DNA of 46,611 nt from Bacteroidota bacterium (GTDB taxonomy: Bacteria; Bacteroidota; Bacteroidia; Chitinophagales; Chitinophagaceae). The notes beneath the pieces are model-generated. The model was not told the origin of the DNA, did no database searches, and saw nothing but the letters and a program-made list of their open reading frames with translations. Each line of letters opens with the position of its first letter. Positions within the stretch are counted from its first letter, which is position 1. The stretch is taken from NCBI GenBank assembly GCA_005788265.1, contig SXYR01000030.1, positions 1 through 46,611 on the forward strand. The letters run 5' to 3'. The position numbers and the translations under genes are program-made. Positions 5,846 to 13,072 of the stretch are shown here, in pieces.

Positions 5846-7636
5846 CTAATCCCCATCTTTTTTTAACTGCGCGGCAATCATTTTTGAATAGGAACCCTGT
5901 TGGGCCAGGAGGGATTTGTGGGTGCCTTCTTCGATCAATTTTCCACCCTCTAGAACAATGATTTTGTGTGCTTTACGAATGGTGGAAAGCCTATGGGCAA
6001 TGACTATGGATGTACGCCCATTTGTCAACACATCAATAGCCTTTTGAATCAGCCCCTCTGTATTGGAGTCAACCGAAGAAGTTGCCTCATCCAAAATCAG
6101 GATAGCTGGATTGAAAAGCAATGCCCTTAGGAAGGAAAGCAACTGACGCTGACCGGTTGACAAAGTTGCACCTCTCTCCTGCACATTGTACTGATACCCA
6201 CCCGGAAGCTGCTCAATAAAGTCATGAATTCCTATCATTCTGGCTGCTTCCTTGACTTTATCAAATGGAATCGCTGGATCACGGAGTGTGACATTGTCAA
6301 GTATCGAGCCTGAAAAAAGAAAAACATCCTGCAAAACTACTGCGATCTGTGAACGGAGCGTATGCAATGTGAGCTTCTCAATAGCATATCCATCAATCAA
6401 AATTTCTCCTTCCTGATGCTGATACAAACGATTGATCAGGTGGACAATGGTCGACTTCCCGCTTCCCGTATGTCCCACAATTGCCAAAGTTTCACCTTGC
6501 AATACCGAAAAATTGACATCCTTCAAAACTGGAATGCCCTCTTTGTAAGAGAATCCAACATGCTTGAAATCGATTTGCCCTTTGATCTGCATATCCCTCG
6601 CTCCGGGTTGGTCATTTAATTCATCCTGGTTGTCCATTACCAACATGACCCTTTCTGCAGCGACCATGCCCATTTGGAGCACATTGAACTTATCGGCAAT
6701 CACCCGAAGGGGACGAAACAACATACTGAGCAAAAGGGCAAAAGCAACAATGTTCCCACTGATGGCGGTGGCCTGAATCGCATCTACATGCAGTGCATCT
6801 TTTGCTGCAAACCAAACCAGCAATCCCATGGAAACCGCAAGAATGATCTCTACAACGGGGAAGAAAACCGAATAGGCAAATATGGCATCAATATTGGCGT
6901 TCCTGTGACGCTGGTTGATGGCATCAAATTTTTTCATTTCCCTTTTCTCTGCAGTGAAAGCCTGGATGATTTGCATTCCGGAGATGTGCTCCTGCACAAA
7001 CGCATTGAGTGAAGCGATGGCATTCCTGACAGCAATAAAAGATTTGTTGACACTTTCCTTGAACAAGTAGGTCGCCACAATTAAAAATGGAAAAGGAATC
7101 AAACAGATCAACGTCAATCGCCAATCGGTGTAGAGCATGGCCGCCAAGATGGCAATGACAGAGAGCAAATCTGCAATAATGGGGATAAATCCCTCTGCAA
7201 AAATATCATTGATGGCCTCAATATCATTGATGGTTCGAGTGGTCAGTGTTCCGATGGGGGTTTTGTCAAATTGCCGGAGATTGAGATGCAGGATTTTTTG
7301 AAAAACTTCTACGCGGATATCCTTCACGACTTTATGTCCGAGCCAAGACGTGATGTAAGTGAACAAAAATTTAGTAGCCGTCTCTATAAAAAGAAAGACA
7401 ATTTGAATGAGGGTGATGTACAGCAGAAACTGCAATACCAAGGCAACCGGTTCACCCGCTGCATTGACTTTCTTCAATGTATAGTTGATCATCAGCGGTC
7501 TCAGTGGCGAGAAAACTGCCAACACCAAGGCCAATGCAACGGACAAATAAAATCGTCCTGCATAAGGTTTTGCAAATACAAAAACCCGCTTCAGCAATTG
7601 TGTATTGAAAATCTTTTTCTTCTCTTCCTTGCTCAT
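5846..7636 (-). CDS. ABC exporter, fused membrane and ATPase domains (MsbA/MdlB type)
   Basis: A 596-residue half-transporter that would act as a dimer to export a lipid, peptide or drug. Residues about 25-310 form the six-helix type IV exporter domain. The ATPase domain follows, with Walker A GHTGSGKST (388-396), signature LSTGQ (492-496), Walker B ILILDE (512-517) and the H-loop in IAHRLSTIR. All catalytic motifs are intact. It starts 7 bp after the stop of the secreted caspase-like gene, so both are probably on one mRNA. That linkage suggests a common task in the envelope, but the substrate cannot be deduced. It could equally be a general MsbA-like lipid flippase. Confidence 0.93.
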   Translation of the reverse strand: MSKEEKKKIFNTQLLKRVFVFAKPYAGRFYLSVALALVLAVFSPLRPLMINYTLKKVNAAGEPVALVLQFLLYITLIQIVFLFIETATKFLFTYITSWLGHKVVKDIRVEVFQKILHLNLRQFDKTPIGTLTTRTINDIEAINDIFAEGFIPIIADLLSVIAILAAMLYTDWRLTLICLIPFPFLIVATYLFKESVNKSFIAVRNAIASLNAFVQEHISGMQIIQAFTAEKREMKKFDAINQRHRNANIDAIFAYSVFFPVVEIILAVSMGLLVWFAAKDALHVDAIQATAISGNIVAFALLLSMLFRPLRVIADKFNVLQMGMVAAERVMLVMDNQDELNDQPGARDMQIKGQIDFKHVGFSYKEGIPVLKDVNFSVLQGETLAIVGHTGSGKSTIVHLINRLYQHQEGEILIDGYAIEKLTLHTLRSQIAVVLQDVFLFSGSILDNVTLRDPAIPFDKVKEAARMIGIHDFIEQLPGGYQYNVQERGATLSTGQRQLLSFLRALLFNPAILILDEATSSVDSNTEGLIQKAIDVLTNGRTSIVIAHRLSTIRKAHKIIVLEGGKLIEEGTHKSLLAQQGSYSKMIAAQLKKDGD

Positions 7637-7643
7637 CGTTCAA

Positions 7644-9746
7644 TCAAATGATTTTACCTCTGGCCTTTAACAACAACAATCCGAGATTTTGATGGGGCGC
7701 AACATAATTTTCAAAACGACGCTGTGCGCTGGAAAGACGCATTTGCAGCTGCAAGCTTCGCCAAATCCTTATCCAATCTAGATCCTTTCCAATCCTCATT
7801 GTTTCATTGATCATCCGCAAAATAGGATCATTCACCGATAAGCTTCCCACCTCTCTGGAAGAAATGATTTGTGCATCCGGACAAACATTGAGCACCTTGC
7901 TCAAATGCTGGTAACTGCCACAAGATCCAAGCAAAACAATTTTTGAACTGATGGGCAACTGCGCAATGGTAGATGGCAAATGAAAACTGTGTCCACGGTG
8001 AACGACGATGCCAGGCTCCAAATCTTGTTCTTGCAGAAACAACGCCAGTGCTGTTTGGGCTTGGGCATCTCGATCTTCACCATTGGCATGGTCAAATGGA
8101 ATATTTGCAAATACCGATATGGGTTTGCCTTGGAGGGACCTGATTTCAATCCATTGTTCACTTTTGAAAATTCTCCAAGATTTGCTCCTTGAATAATATG
8201 CCAGAAAATTTTCAAACGAAGCCTTTCCATCCTTATCCCCATAAAAAAACAATTGCTCAACAATCCTGCCATTTGACAAAAGCTTGTTGCGCATCATGAA
8301 ATAGGGAGGATCCAATCCAAATTGTTTCGAAAAAGATTTTCCACTGTCCTGCTCTGACATCAAAAGTAATTGAAGCGTCTCGTACAAAGCAACGCCATCA
8401 TTGTCTTTGATGGATTGGAGTGCCAATATGTTTGATTGGACCTCTTCTGCAATGGCTTTTTTAAGTGCCGGATTGCTGATGCTTGAATATCCGTTTACAA
8501 CATCAACCGAAGTTTCGAGTGAAGGGTCTATATTCAATCCAGCGACAAAATCCTTGATCAAACGCTTGGCTTGATCAGGTCGCATGGCATTGATGAATTC
8601 ATCGAGCTTGTTGTAGTCGGCCGCCATTTTGATAAACTTCCTGAAGCGATCAAAATGTATATCGATGAGCAATTCATCTGAGGTGCGTTTGTTCAGCAAA
8701 GCCATCATTCGCTGAAAAATTCCAACAAAAGATGATGTATAAATGATGTCTTCAGAAGCAATCATTAAATAATAAAGTTCATCCGGAGTGAGTCCAGCAA
8801 TTATTTTAAACCGCACCGCATCTGGATCATCATGCAAGGCATTGACCTCATTTATAAAAACTTCTGCAGCTTTCTTTTTCAACAGTTTAAATACCTCAGC
8901 GTATTCAATGGGGTAATGATCACTTGCTATTTCACGCTGATAGTGGATTTGGGTTTTCACAAGCAGTTTAAAAAAGTTGGTTTCATTTTGTGATACAATT
9001 TTTAAACTGTCATAAGTGATCTCCTTGTTGATGATGGCATGCATAAAAGGATACAACAATCTTCCAGAACTATCTGCAGATAATTTGCAAAGCAGTTGAA
9101 CCATGCTGTCATTGACCAAAACCATTTTTTTTCTCAGGGGCGATTGCAATGCCGAAGCGTAATTGTAAAAATCACTTGGGAATTTATGTGCAGCGGTAAT
9201 CAACACCTCGTTGACAAAAGGTTCGTTCAAGTAATTTGAAATGGTCGGAAGGATTTGATCTGGATGCTCGATGATGTACTGATAGTGCATGTAAATTTTG
9301 GCCCGTGGCAATCCAGCATTTTCATAAAAAACTGTTCGATCACCCAACAAAGAACGGTTGATCTCAAGCGGATAGCTTTCGATCCATTTTTCAATGGATT
9401 GTCCCTGGAAATCCAATTCAAGCAATGTCTTGTATGCTCCAAACAATGGTTCTGCCAGTTGCCTGGCTACTTTGCCTGACCGTAAATCATCGAGGATGAC
9501 TTTAATACCTGAGAGGTATTTTATTTTCAGTCGATGGTCGAACTGGTTCTCCAGCTCTACCCATTGTTGCAACCCATCGATGCTGAGATTTAAATTTTTC
9601 GGAAGTCCTTGCTGAGCGAGATCGATGTCCTCATGCAATTTGACCCTTCTGATATCATTGGTCCAAACGAGCGTATCAGTACTTATTTGAGCACTTGAAA
9701 AGAAAGGCAACATCACCAAAAACATCAAAAAACGCAAGATTTGCAT
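7644..9746 (-). CDS. Secreted 700-residue protein with C-terminal caspase-like (clan CD) motifs
   Basis: I do not know a named family for this protein. A signal peptide (MQILRFLMFLVMLPFFSSAQ) indicates export. Residues about 25-480 look mainly alpha-helical with no recognised motif. The last 200 residues show an alpha/beta pattern: a strand (KPISVFANIPFD), a helix (QTALALFLQEQDLE), then VVHRGHSFHL, the strand KIVLLGSCGSY, and later QIISSREVGSLSVNDP. Hydrophobic strand-His-(x)n-hydrophobic strand-Gly-Ser-Cys is the arrangement of caspase, gingipain and CHAT peptidases. Candidate catalytic residues are His586 (or His583) and Cys609. The ATG at 9746 is preferred over an in-frame GTG two codons upstream. 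The ABC exporter gene follows after 7 bp. Peptidase activity is inferred from motifs only. Confidence 0.75.
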   Translation of the reverse strand: MQILRFLMFLVMLPFFSSAQISTDTLVWTNDIRRVKLHEDIDLAQQGLPKNLNLSIDGLQQWVELENQFDHRLKIKYLSGIKVILDDLRSGKVARQLAEPLFGAYKTLLELDFQGQSIEKWIESYPLEINRSLLGDRTVFYENAGLPRAKIYMHYQYIIEHPDQILPTISNYLNEPFVNEVLITAAHKFPSDFYNYASALQSPLRKKMVLVNDSMVQLLCKLSADSSGRLLYPFMHAIINKEITYDSLKIVSQNETNFFKLLVKTQIHYQREIASDHYPIEYAEVFKLLKKKAAEVFINEVNALHDDPDAVRFKIIAGLTPDELYYLMIASEDIIYTSSFVGIFQRMMALLNKRTSDELLIDIHFDRFRKFIKMAADYNKLDEFINAMRPDQAKRLIKDFVAGLNIDPSLETSVDVVNGYSSISNPALKKAIAEEVQSNILALQSIKDNDGVALYETLQLLLMSEQDSGKSFSKQFGLDPPYFMMRNKLLSNGRIVEQLFFYGDKDGKASFENFLAYYSRSKSWRIFKSEQWIEIRSLQGKPISVFANIPFDHANGEDRDAQAQTALALFLQEQDLEPGIVVHRGHSFHLPSTIAQLPISSKIVLLGSCGSYQHLSKVLNVCPDAQIISSREVGSLSVNDPILRMINETMRIGKDLDWIRIWRSLQLQMRLSSAQRRFENYVAPHQNLGLLLLKARGKII

Positions 9747-9816
9747 GTGCACGAAATTAAATCATTCTGCCCCGGGGATGTCTCATTTTGCTTAACAATT
9801 TATTAATCTTGCATGA

Positions 9817-9869: not shown

Positions 9870-10550
9870 ATGGCACCAGAAACCAAAAAAATCCTGATAG
9901 CTGACGATGAACCGGATATCCTCGAAATCATCAGCTATAACTTACAACTTCATGGGTACTCGGTTTTCACTGCCAAAGATGGGGAACATGCAATCAAAAT
10001 TGCCAATGAGGTGCATCCTGATCTGATCATTTTAGACATCATGATGCCAAAAAAGAATGGCATTGAAGTCTGCAAACAGTTAAGATCACAAACAGATTTT
10101 CAAGATACCATCATCGTTTTTTTAACAGCCTTGAACGATGAACTTTCACATGTAAGAGGGTTGGAATTTGGAGCGGATGATTTCATCACCAAACCCATTT
10201 CGCCCAAGGTCATGGTTTCAAAGGTGAACTCATTTTTCAGACGCATCAACAAACAAGATTCATCAAGGGCCATTGAAATGGGCGACCTCCGTATCGAACC
10301 GGAAGAATACGTTGTGTACTACAAGGACCAGCCCATCAATCTTGCAAAGAAAGAATTTGAATTGTTGAGTTACCTGGCATCAAAACCTGGACGGGTATTT
10401 CTTAGAAATGAAATTTTGAACAAGATCTGGGGCAATGATGTGATCGTAGGCGATAGAACCATCGATGTTCATATCAGAAAAATCAGACAGAAAATTGGGA
10501 TTGATTGTATAACCACCGTGAAGGGAGTGGGATATAAATTTGAGCTTTAA
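9870..10550 (+). CDS. OmpR/PhoB-family response regulator
   Basis: A 226-residue DNA-binding regulator. The receiver domain (about 6-120) has the acidic pair in ADDEPD (residues 11-13), the phosphoacceptor Asp56 in LIILDIMMP, a conserved Thr in FLTAL and Lys in ITKPISP. The winged-helix effector domain (about 130-226) ends in the typical RTIDVHIRKIRQKIG and VKGVGYKFEL motifs. The ATG start is chosen because the promoter lies immediately upstream. The kinase gene follows 44 bp later. The pair resembles PhoBR and RprXY-like systems of Bacteroidota; the signal is not shown by the sequence. Confidence 0.93.
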   Translation: MAPETKKILIADDEPDILEIISYNLQLHGYSVFTAKDGEHAIKIANEVHPDLIILDIMMPKKNGIEVCKQLRSQTDFQDTIIVFLTALNDELSHVRGLEFGADDFITKPISPKVMVSKVNSFFRRINKQDSSRAIEMGDLRIEPEEYVVYYKDQPINLAKKEFELLSYLASKPGRVFLRNEILNKIWGNDVIVGDRTIDVHIRKIRQKIGIDCITTVKGVGYKFEL

Positions 10551-10594: not shown

Positions 10595-11644
10595 ATGTTC
10601 GAATCTAAGAACTACTCTACAACGAGAATTTCCTTTTACATCAGTGCTTCTGCAGGTGCTGCAGCCCTGCTCCTTGCCACAACAATGGGTTGCGGAATAA
10701 CAGCGTCGTCCATCATCACCATAGGAGTTGCATCCATTTCTTTTATTGTTGCACGCTTTTTGATTGATACATTTATTTACAGAAGAGTCAAACTCATTTA
10801 CAAGTTCATCAACCAAACCAAAGCCTCCAAAAGAGAAGAGTTTTTCCAAAAAAATATTCTGCCTCAGCAAAGCTTGGATGAAGTTGGTGAAGAAGTGCTG
10901 AAATGGGCAGACCATAGAAAAGATGAAATGGAATTGCTCGAAAAAAATGAGGCTTTCAGAAAAGAGTTCTTACAAAACCTCTCACATGAATTTAAAACAC
11001 CTGCATTTGCCATTCAAGGATACCTGGAAACATTGATTGATGGAGCAGCCGAGAATCAGGAAGTCAGTCGAAAATTCTTATCAAATGCATATAAAAATAC
11101 CGAACGTCTGATACACTTGATATCCGACTTGGATGAAATTACCCGACTGGAAAGCGGTAAACAAGAATTGCATTACCAAAACTTTGTGATCCAAGACCTG
11201 ATCAACGACGTATTTGAAACATTGAGCATCAAAACATCCGTTAAAAAAATAAACTGCCTCATAAAAAAAGGATGTGAACAACCCATATTGGTTTTTGCAG
11301 ACAAAGAAAAGATTCGACAAGTATTGATCAACTTGGTAGACAACGCATCTAAATATGGTAGTGAAAAGGGGAAAATAGAAGCAAGCATTTATAAAACAGA
11401 TGACATCTCTGCTTTGATAGAAATTACCGATGATGGCATAGGAATTGCCGAAGAGCATTTGCCAAGAATTTTTGAAAGGTTTTACAGAACCGATTATGGA
11501 AGGAGCAGAAACATAGGAGGAACTGGACTAGGATTGGCCATTTGCAAACACATCCTTGAAGCACACGGTCAATTCATCCAGGCAAGAAGCACCCCCGGAA
11601 TTGGAACTACATTTGGATTCACATTACAACTTGCAAAAAAATAA
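10595..11644 (+). CDS. Membrane sensor histidine kinase
   Basis: A 349-residue kinase that should phosphorylate the regulator encoded just upstream. Two hydrophobic segments (about 13-32 and 38-58) are separated by only a few residues, so there is almost no periplasmic sensor domain. The H box is FLQNLSHEFKTP with His131. The ATPase domain shows the N box LVDNASKYGS, the G1 box DDGIGIAEEHL, the F box FERFYRTD and the G2 box GGTGLGLAICKH. All catalytic boxes are intact. The lack of an external domain suggests sensing within the membrane or through a partner, as in PhoR-like kinases. Confidence 0.94.
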   Translation: MFESKNYSTTRISFYISASAGAAALLLATTMGCGITASSIITIGVASISFIVARFLIDTFIYRRVKLIYKFINQTKASKREEFFQKNILPQQSLDEVGEEVLKWADHRKDEMELLEKNEAFRKEFLQNLSHEFKTPAFAIQGYLETLIDGAAENQEVSRKFLSNAYKNTERLIHLISDLDEITRLESGKQELHYQNFVIQDLINDVFETLSIKTSVKKINCLIKKGCEQPILVFADKEKIRQVLINLVDNASKYGSEKGKIEASIYKTDDISALIEITDDGIGIAEEHLPRIFERFYRTDYGRSRNIGGTGLGLAICKHILEAHGQFIQARSTPGIGTTFGFTLQLAKK

Positions 11645-11857: not shown

Positions 11858-13072
11858 TTGAAGTTTTCAATTAAAATATTGATTACCAATGTCTTACTCA
11901 TCGGATATGCTTCCGTCTCTATAAGTGCATCTTCCAGAGAGCGTATAGATTTCATGGGAGACACCCTGCAGTTTAGTCCTAAAACGGCTGTCCTAATCGG
12001 AATCCCTTATAAATATGAGGAGGAATCGATTGTTGAAATCCGTGAAAAATTAAATGAAGCCGGTTGCAGAGAAATCATACACCAGATCAAAGAAATCGTC
12101 CAACGAAAAGAGTTGTGCGACTGGTTCACTTACCAGCTGGTCAGACAAGCGGCAAATATGATCATTCCCAAGAATACTGATTACTTGGGCTATACCACAA
12201 CAAAATGGTTTTTGATGAACCAACTTGGATTCAGTGCTGCCATGGCGCTGTCAAAAAATGGAGTCTTGCTGTACATTAAATCCAATGACCAGATTTACAA
12301 TATACCCACAAAAATCATTGATGGATCACCCTATGTATGCTTTAACTACCATGATTACAATTACACAACCGAAAAGATAATAGACCAAACAATTGTAAGG
12401 GAGCTGAATGAAAACAGCAAAGCTTTCTCCTTCAGCGTACCAAGACTTCCTACATCTAACCCTCAGCACTATGTGGAGAAGGAATTGGCATTTGAATATG
12501 AAAACCAGGAGGAAAAAATAAAAATCAAAGTGGACTCATCATTGAGAAATTTCTTTATCAATTACCCTGTTACTGAATATTGCAATCAATTTAATATACC
12601 ACTCAGCCAAGAAGCAAAAAACACCTTGATCAATTCCCTGCAGAAAAATCTTGAGGGCATGAGTGTAAAAAAGGGTGTTGAATACCTGATGTGTTTTACC
12701 AGAAATGCTTTCACCTTTGAAAAAGACAGCGATTATTTTGGAAGAGAGAAAAGGCTGTCACCAGAGGAAACATTGCTTTACAACAAAAGTGATTGTGAGG
12801 ACAGATCTGCTTTGTTTTATGCATTGGTGAAAGAGATCTATCAACTTCCCATGATTGTACTTGAATATCCCGATCACATAACTGTTGCTGTAAAATTTGA
12901 AAAGCCATTTGGCGAAACCATTCTTTTTCAAAATGAACTTTACACAATTTGTGAGCCTACGCCACAAAACATCAATTTGAGAATTGGACAAATCAGCAAA
13001 AAGTTTAAACATGAGAATTTTCAGGTGGCGTTTTCCTATCAACCCCCTGCATCCTCAAGTATATTTAAATAA
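11858..13072 (+). CDS. Secreted transglutaminase-like protein
   Basis: A 404-residue protein with an N-terminal signal peptide (about residues 1-24, ending SISAS). The C-terminal third carries a transglutaminase-like papain-fold pattern: Cys313 in KSDCEDRSALFY, His340 in EYPDHITVAV and an acidic residue in ICEPT (Glu366). These would be the Cys-His-acid triad of a cysteine peptidase or amide-bond enzyme. The N-terminal 230 residues are unrecognised. Translation appears to start at TTG 11858, because no in-frame ATG gives the signal peptide and an in-frame stop lies at 11846. The gene follows the two-component pair in the same direction but after a 213-bp gap, so co-regulation is uncertain. 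A terminator follows immediately. Substrate unknown. Confidence 0.7.
   Translation: MKFSIKILITNVLLIGYASVSISASSRERIDFMGDTLQFSPKTAVLIGIPYKYEEESIVEIREKLNEAGCREIIHQIKEIVQRKELCDWFTYQLVRQAANMIIPKNTDYLGYTTTKWFLMNQLGFSAAMALSKNGVLLYIKSNDQIYNIPTKIIDGSPYVCFNYHDYNYTTEKIIDQTIVRELNENSKAFSFSVPRLPTSNPQHYVEKELAFEYENQEEKIKIKVDSSLRNFFINYPVTEYCNQFNIPLSQEAKNTLINSLQKNLEGMSVKKGVEYLMCFTRNAFTFEKDSDYFGREKRLSPEETLLYNKSDCEDRSALFYALVKEIYQLPMIVLEYPDHITVAVKFEKPFGETILFQNELYTICEPTPQNINLRIGQISKKFKHENFQVAFSYQPPASSSIFK

Follow-up and report, generated by a model that had tools for sequence, protein, structure and literature searches.

A predicted, probably periplasmic clan CD-type cysteine peptidase of an unnamed family in Chitinophagaceae

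The locus, the two-part protein and its distribution

The gene described here lies in a window of 46,611 nucleotides (the whole stretch of DNA that was analysed), taken from a draft genome that is 84% complete and consists of 187 contigs with 1,615,919 bases in all. It is carried on the minus strand and encodes a protein of 700 residues, with a GTG two codons upstream of the ATG as an alternative start. An ABC exporter follows it downstream, and a two-component system is transcribed divergently on its other side. The features of the locus are:

5846..7636, minus strand: ABC exporter, the next gene downstream (Pfam ABC_membrane, ABC_tran)
7644..9746, minus strand: gene for the 700-residue protein, stop codon counted; the reading frame runs without interruption between its ATG (9746) and its stop (7644)
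7647..8315, minus strand: caspase-like alpha/beta domain, residues 478-700 (two models and VIA-align)
7917..7928, minus strand: GSCG motif (residues 607-610), in which Cys609 is the presumed nucleophile (alignment of 133 sequences)
7986..8000, minus strand: HRGHS motif (residues 583-587), in which His586 is presumed to be catalytic (alignment of 133 sequences)
8226..8237, minus strand: DKDG motif (DxDG), residues 504-507, after core strand 1 (alignment)
8319..9653, minus strand: all-helical domain, residues 32-476 (AlphaFold2 model; no family match above cut-off)
8721..8843, minus strand: conserved stretch in the helical domain, residues 302-342, with His305, Arg312, Thr337 and Ser338 (alignment)
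9690..9746, minus strand: signal peptide, residues 1-19, with cleavage at SSA/Q after residue 19 (sequence reading and model)
9792..9807, minus strand: 16-bp element ATTATnAAATTGTTAA, with one mismatch in the window (intergenic motif search, related loci)
9870..10550, plus strand: divergent PhoB/OmpR-type response regulator (Pfam Response_reg, Trans_reg_C)
10595..11644, plus strand: histidine kinase (Pfam HisKA, HATPase_c)

Beyond the kinase, positions 11858-13072 of the plus strand encode a 404-residue protein with a signal-peptide-like start, which has no Pfam match above cut-off (Band_7, E 0.031). Its KSDCEDRS and YPDHITVAV segments resemble, as we take it, the Cys and His regions of transglutaminase-type proteins.

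A sequence-only reading of this DNA had placed the 700-residue protein outside the cytoplasm on account of a signal peptide, and the N-terminus MQILRFLMFLVMLPFFSSAQ does read as one, ending in SSA/Q; the Q-rule of the Bacteroidota signal peptidase was taken from PMC5837995 and PMC10653852. The structural model has a helix at residues 2-19 and pLDDT below 50 at residues 19-29. Of 133 relatives, 71 have a loose AXA/Q pattern near the start of the protein, and one has a lipobox-like pattern, which lies within a hydrophobic stretch. There was no sign of a type IX sorting domain, the model for which belongs to NCBIfam, as no NCBIfam model matched the window protein. Judged from its sequence, the protein is most likely soluble and periplasmic.

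The AlphaFold2 model of the whole protein, made from 75 sequences (pLDDT 91.1, pTM 0.80), contains only helices at residues 32-476 and alternates between strand and helix from about residue 494; the alpha/beta domain modelled alone reached pLDDT 91.4 and pTM 0.89. The description of the first 480 residues as helical and unrecognised therefore holds for residues 32-476, with no Pfam or NCBIfam match above cut-off. The alternating pattern proposed for the last 200 residues was also found, but it extends over about 220.

The gene was detected (E 0.001 or better) in 144 of the 147 genomes and 98 of the 100 genera sampled from its own bacterial family. A class-wide sample gave 15 positives among 295 genomes, seven from the same family and eight from two other families, while all 14 positives among the 395 genomes of a phylum sample belonged to the window's own family. 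These genome searches were centred on the relatives of the window in Bacteroidota, and the scan yielded at least 568 confirmed relatives, with 80 loci kept from Chitinophagaceae or broader Bacteroidota groups. Outside Bacteroidota, homologues were found on Azospirillum plasmids only, where tblastn detected four (E 8e-26 to 8e-20), annotated 'hypothetical protein'; a search of phages gave no match.

Some of these genomes have further features. In two of them (L037/L162 and L041/L168) the gene is present in two tandem copies, and several more genomes of the own family list second copies. In two of the Azospirillum homologues (L360, 4720-6741; L361, 4408-6621), the linker that joins the helical to the caspase-like part contains GETPxR-type repeats in tandem, as would be expected of a flexible hinge. 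Three of the four Azospirillum records (L359, L360 and L361) have a DUF1194 gene, VWA-like where this was tested (L359), in divergent orientation upstream of the homologue and near ethanolamine genes.

Fold and putative active site

None of the sequence routes placed the protein in a known family. The only match that Pfam listed for it was an unrelated phage family (E 0.2), and CHAT (PF12770), C11 (PF03415), C14 (PF00656) and the C25 gingipains were not listed at E up to 10. The first three were also absent from the 25 best families listed for 75 members of the domain (best E 0.0098) and from the matches listed for 12 full-length members, and no clan CD family was among these or among the Pfam matches of the four Azospirillum proteins. 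NCBIfam, where C25 was likewise not matched, and PADLOC gave nothing for the window protein, and its own genome has no PF03415 match. Sequence searches of the PDB, with single proteins and with profiles, gave no match that would name the protein, separases included. The sub-cut-off matches listed by these routes were unrelated to each other. Among the matches listed in literature searches, which covered few subscription journals, there was no paper on the family.

Profiles for CHAT, C11, C14 and GTPase proteins, built from related genomes, were compared with the family by hhalign, and none was significant: CHAT scored 21.1 (E 0.039, probability about 1%), C14 19.2 (E 0.053, probability about 1%) and C11 13.1, next to 18.0 for a reversed GTPase control, and the GTPase profile itself was not significant. 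The CHAT and C14 alignments set Cys609 on the catalytic Cys; since the His did not align, this was not counted as proof.

The clan CD assignment was instead approached through the order of secondary structure elements. In the model, a strand at 494-501 and a helix at 505-520 are followed by strands at 524-528, 532-537 and 543-548 and a helix at 559-573; then come a strand at 580-584, the HRGHS motif, a helix at 587-595, a strand at 603-606, the GSCG motif and a helix at 611-621, before a strand at 626-630 and a helix at 636-651. This gives the order b1-a1-b-b-b-a2-b3(His)-a3-b4(Cys)-a4-b5-a5. The clan CD sheet has six strands, five parallel and one antiparallel, in the order 2-1-3-4-5-6; core strands 1-5 are visible in the models, and the sixth, antiparallel strand is not evident. 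By definition, the clan has its His where core strand 3 ends and its Cys where core strand 4 ends, both on the C-terminal side (PMC4357240), with Gly directly preceding the catalytic His (PMC12445089). In our model, strands 580-584 and 603-606 precede His586 and Cys609, and Gly585 stands before His586 in all 133 aligned sequences.

Structural comparison gave a more mixed picture. In VIA-align, differences of less than 1 between rows count as ties, and Z 7-8 is the usual level for models that have no clear match. The whole model matched best with SAVED-CHAT (8tl0; Z 10.6, rmsd 3.5, 160 residues). Next came the Myxococcus protein DdvA (8rot and 8rw5, Z 9.1 and 9.0, the 8rot row with rmsd 8.4), separase (C50; 5fby and 5fc2, Z 8.8, with rmsd 4.0 over 164 residues, and 8.7), C11 iotapain (Z 8.8, rmsd 3.8, 182 residues) and the best GTPase, Gtr1 (Z 8.8). 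The C11 clostripain entries (6nag, 6n9j, 6mzo and PmC11) covered Z 7.8-8.8 and the TPR-CHAT/Csx29 entries (8eex, 7xsr and 7y85) Z 7.9-8.5, including a match at Z 8.3 (rmsd 3.6, 145 residues) and 7xsr at Z 8.5 with an rmsd of 15. With the domain alone, SAVED-CHAT was again first (Z 9.7, rmsd 3.5, 165 residues), C11 reached 8.7, 8.3 and 8.1, and GTPases up to 8.4. Given the tie rule and the no-match level, only SAVED-CHAT is clear of the GTPases (by 1.8 for the whole model and 1.3 for the domain), and separase and C11 are tied with them. Absence from such a list excludes no family, and the whole-model list barely tests the helical domain.

Foldseek ranked GIMAP2, MglA and other small GTPases first. 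It found no match at E 0.001 or better for the whole model and three for the domain, all GIMAP2, with no clan CD peptidase title among the best 50 rows for either. In a library of viral structures, the best match was a clostripain-related C11 protease (E 4.3e-5, TM 0.46), closely followed by a Ran GTPase (9.8e-5). These rankings, together with VIA-align Z scores of up to 8.8, would suit a domain that lacks a Cys-His site and is GTPase-like or of another Rossmann type. We consider this extremely improbable: Gly503-Asp-Lys-Asp-Gly507 is spaced by three residues and not by the four of a Walker A motif (GxxxxGK[ST]), 12 sequences have K, Q, R, W, L or E at position 508, and the invariant His, Cys and Gly sit in the two clan CD positions. 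It is the missing P-loop on which the GTPase reading was rejected. An extracytoplasmic GTPase would also lack GTP. As Foldseek ranks GTPases first and the VIA-align margins are small, the clan CD call leans on topology as well, namely the His after core strand 3, the Cys after strand 4, the Gly before the His and the absence of a P-loop. Taken together, the model-based evidence for a clan CD fold is good but not overwhelming, with a clan CD structure ranked first in both VIA-align lists and small GTPases first in Foldseek's own ranking.

The motifs on which a clan CD peptidase had been proposed were all located in the translation: VVHRGHSFHL at residues 581-590, GSCGSY with QIISSREVGSLSVNDP coming after it, and a spacing of 23 between His586 and Cys609. 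Their conservation was followed in an alignment of 133 distinct sequences, which includes the window protein and six sequences from other families and leaves out sequences of fewer than 600 residues. His583, Arg584, Gly585, His586, Ser587, Gly607, Cys609, Gly610, Gly634, Asn639 and Trp658 are identical in all 133, as are His305, Arg312, Thr337 and Ser338 of the helical part. Asp504 and Gly507 of the DxDG loop are each kept in 132, Asp506 and Asn548 each in 130, and Ser608 in 131, with Asp and Ala once each in its place. Residue 631 is Lys or Arg throughout the 133, and Ser or Gln in Azospirillum. Such conservation of the His and Cys motifs is beyond chance, and the proposed pair, which fits the clan definition by position, gains support from it. 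The two conditions named beforehand as refuting the sequence-only reading, a predicted fold unlike clan CD and free substitution of His586 or Cys609 among homologues, were both checked, and neither overturned it.

In nine divergent sequences, four of them from Azospirillum, HRGHS, GSCG, DxDG, Asn639, Trp658 and Trp662 are all retained, together with Arg312, Phe313, Thr337 and Ser338 of the helical part; His305, Asn548 and the basic residue 631 are not retained across these nine. The alpha/beta part has therefore been conserved jointly with the second half of the helical part, where Arg312, Thr337 and Ser338 are kept as widely as the active site (the 133 sequences and Azospirillum). A catalytically dead binding protein that merely retains the fold would have a precedent in pseudo-caspase domains such as CHAT1 of Csx29 (PMC10028731). 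It is nevertheless very unlikely here, with His586 and Cys609 unsubstituted in the 133 sequences, among which are some that are 24 to 73% identical to the window protein, and in the four homologues from another phylum. The G-S-C-G sequence was also considered as the nucleophile elbow of an alpha/beta-hydrolase. This was rejected, since each invariant His in the domain lies ahead of the Cys, and His685 is His in 70 of the 133 sequences.

For the putative clan CD dyad, His583 is as invariant as His586. The latter is favoured as the catalytic His because it obeys the Gly rule and follows closely on strand 3. Its distance of 23 from Cys609 is shorter than the 42 of caspase-7 (His144, Cys186), the 46 of PmC11 (His133, Cys179; both PMC4357240) and the 43 of Csx29 (H615, C658; PMC10028731). 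We make no prediction of the P1 residue. Lys/Arg631, which follows strand 5, had hinted at an acidic P1, but Asp504 and Asp506, which follow strand 1, suggest the reverse, and Azospirillum has Ser or Gln in place of the basic residue. Within the reach of these comparisons, the open reading frame, the domain split, the fold similarity, the invariance of the site and the near-universal presence in the bacterial family are supported by calculation.

Genomic neighbourhood

Linkage to the two-component system was scored for 142 family genes, a subset of those found in the own family, to which a few genomes contribute two. A response regulator was found within 1.5 kb of 104 genes and not of 35, and three genes had too little flanking sequence to be scored. 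The scores are bimodal, at 271 bits or more or with none above 100, and the counts are lower bounds, since at least two loci scored as unlinked (L059 and L088) have the kinase in place. A tree of 133 sequences was rooted on the other families. Its clade of 105 leaves contains 93 genes scored as linked, 11 as unlinked and one with too little flank; the 22-leaf sister clade and the six outgroup leaves are unlinked. Linkage appears to have been gained once with few losses, about nine of the ten Fitch changes being losses or scoring misses. Other neighbours differ among the groups: an ABC exporter lies downstream of the family gene in 58 of 138 cases, PPK2 polyphosphate kinase adjoins the gene in nine leaves of the 22-leaf clade, and the loci of the outgroup families contain a SpoU-type RNA methylase (Pfam) in five of seven and MutS in four.

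This arrangement raises the possibility that the protein serves the divergent PhoB/PhoR-like two-component system from the periplasm, as its sensor or by cutting one of its partners. The kinase, as read from its sequence, has two hydrophobic stretches joined by a short loop and so almost no periplasmic part of its own, and the divergent regulator lies within 1.5 kb in 104 of the 139 testable family genes and in 75 of the 80 closest loci. We regard the idea as quite unlikely. The 22-leaf clade and two outgroup families lack the linkage, with ten changes under Fitch parsimony, which argues that the window protein works without this two-component system.

The 16-bp element between the divergent genes bears on the same question. 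It was found in 64 of 76 intergenic regions, the window included, and in 57 of the 63 other loci it lies 50-68 bp from the start of the regulator, whereas its distance to the gene of the peptidase-like protein runs from 17 to 1159 bp; it tracks the start of the regulator and not that of the window gene. With up to two mismatches allowed, it occurs upstream of 75 of 93 linked genes and of one of 42 unlinked genes, the latter being the mis-scored L088. The exact pattern has one copy in each of three of the seven genomes searched, in two of them at the gene locus by position; the window's own copy, which has one mismatch, does not count in that search. Going by its position, the element most likely belongs to the promoter of the response regulator and is probably an autoregulatory site of this PhoB-type protein. 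Regulation of the window gene by the adjacent two-component system was also considered, and the motif analysis gives it no support.

Relation to known peptidases and proposed function

We think it likely that the protein represents a new, unnamed family of clan CD-type cysteine peptidases, predicted to be periplasmic and to be regulated by its helical half. As the two clan CD features of position and preceding Gly are present, and those of CHAT, C11, C14 and C25 are not, it is placed in a family of its own and not with the CHAT or C11 enzymes.

The CHAT peptidases of type III CRISPR systems are like the window protein in having a helical front half and a caspase-like back half. They differ in that the window protein is predicted to be exported and not cytoplasmic, matches neither PF12770 nor PADLOC, has a shorter His-Cys spacing than Csx29 (23 against 43) and has no second caspase domain in its model. 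In separase, too, a helical domain precedes the caspase-like one and the His and Cys are close together, about 26 apart, but it is eukaryotic and has no sequence match to the window protein in the PDB searches. The C11 enzymes of Bacteroidota named above are exported, as is predicted for the window protein, and PmC11 shares with it a set of three strands that separates the first core strand from the one leading to the His (PMC4357240). The C11 motif is His-Gly-(X)n-Ala-Cys (PMC12445089), and the S1 Asp (Asp177, PMC4850288) stands two positions ahead of the Cys, whereas the present family has Ser587 after the His and Gly607 two before the Cys in all 133 sequences, and mostly Ser directly before the Cys; it also has a helical half in front and no PF03415 match. 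DdvA, the anti-sigma factor of DdvS (PMC4374960), is a transmembrane protein, in contrast to the predicted soluble, exported window protein. Residues 711-991 of 8rw5 match residues 462-685 of the window protein (rmsd 3.5, 157 residues), and the signalling protein DdvA may therefore contain a caspase-like domain.

The sequence-only reading had contrasted an exported protein with the mostly cytoplasmic caspase homologues of bacteria. The signal peptide stands, but the contrast was overstated: Bacteroidota were already known to export clan CD peptidases, since PmC11 has a signal peptide (PMC4850288) and PDB titles call C11 enzymes secreted.

The same departure from the C11 motif (PMC12445089), with the doubled-His HRGHS and the GSCG turn almost or fully invariant, could also be read as a clan CD-like fold in which a reactive Cys performs another acyl transfer, such as transpeptidation, ligation as in legumain, or chemistry on an envelope polymer. 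Legumain does have ligase activity (PMC9604545). We hold this to be unlikely, as the sequence has no feature for a particular acyl acceptor and the top clan CD alignments are proteases by title.

Proteolysis, its substrate, the periplasmic location and the regulation by the helical half are what we infer for the peptidase reading, on which the protein would work as follows. Exported by its signal peptide, it would be a soluble cysteine endopeptidase of the caspase (clan CD) fold in the periplasm, with Cys609 as the nucleophile, His586 as the general base, and His583 and the DxDG loop after strand 1 supporting the putative site. The helical half would be part of the working enzyme, either keeping the active site shut or docking a partner or substrate. 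Binding of a partner or a periplasmic signal could then lead to one specific cut in an envelope protein. This regulation is modelled on separase and on the TPR-CHAT enzymes; in Csx29, the catalytic residues fall into place when the helical part moves (PMC10028731). In its most far-reaching form, which we put forward tentatively, the proposal would be a family spanning two phyla, of periplasmic separase-like proteases in which the helical domain restrains the site until an envelope signal arrives and one envelope protein is cut.

Bacterial proteases of the caspase fold have mostly been studied as virulence, defence or cell-death factors. If the proposal is true, an enzyme that is core to a whole bacterial family would represent a housekeeping use of this fold and not a role in defence, virulence or death. 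The putative site is definite enough for one decisive mutant test. Should the protein be an active, regulated peptidase, it would add a family that is new to the peptidase and domain databases and provide a tractable case of a core, non-defence role for the caspase fold.
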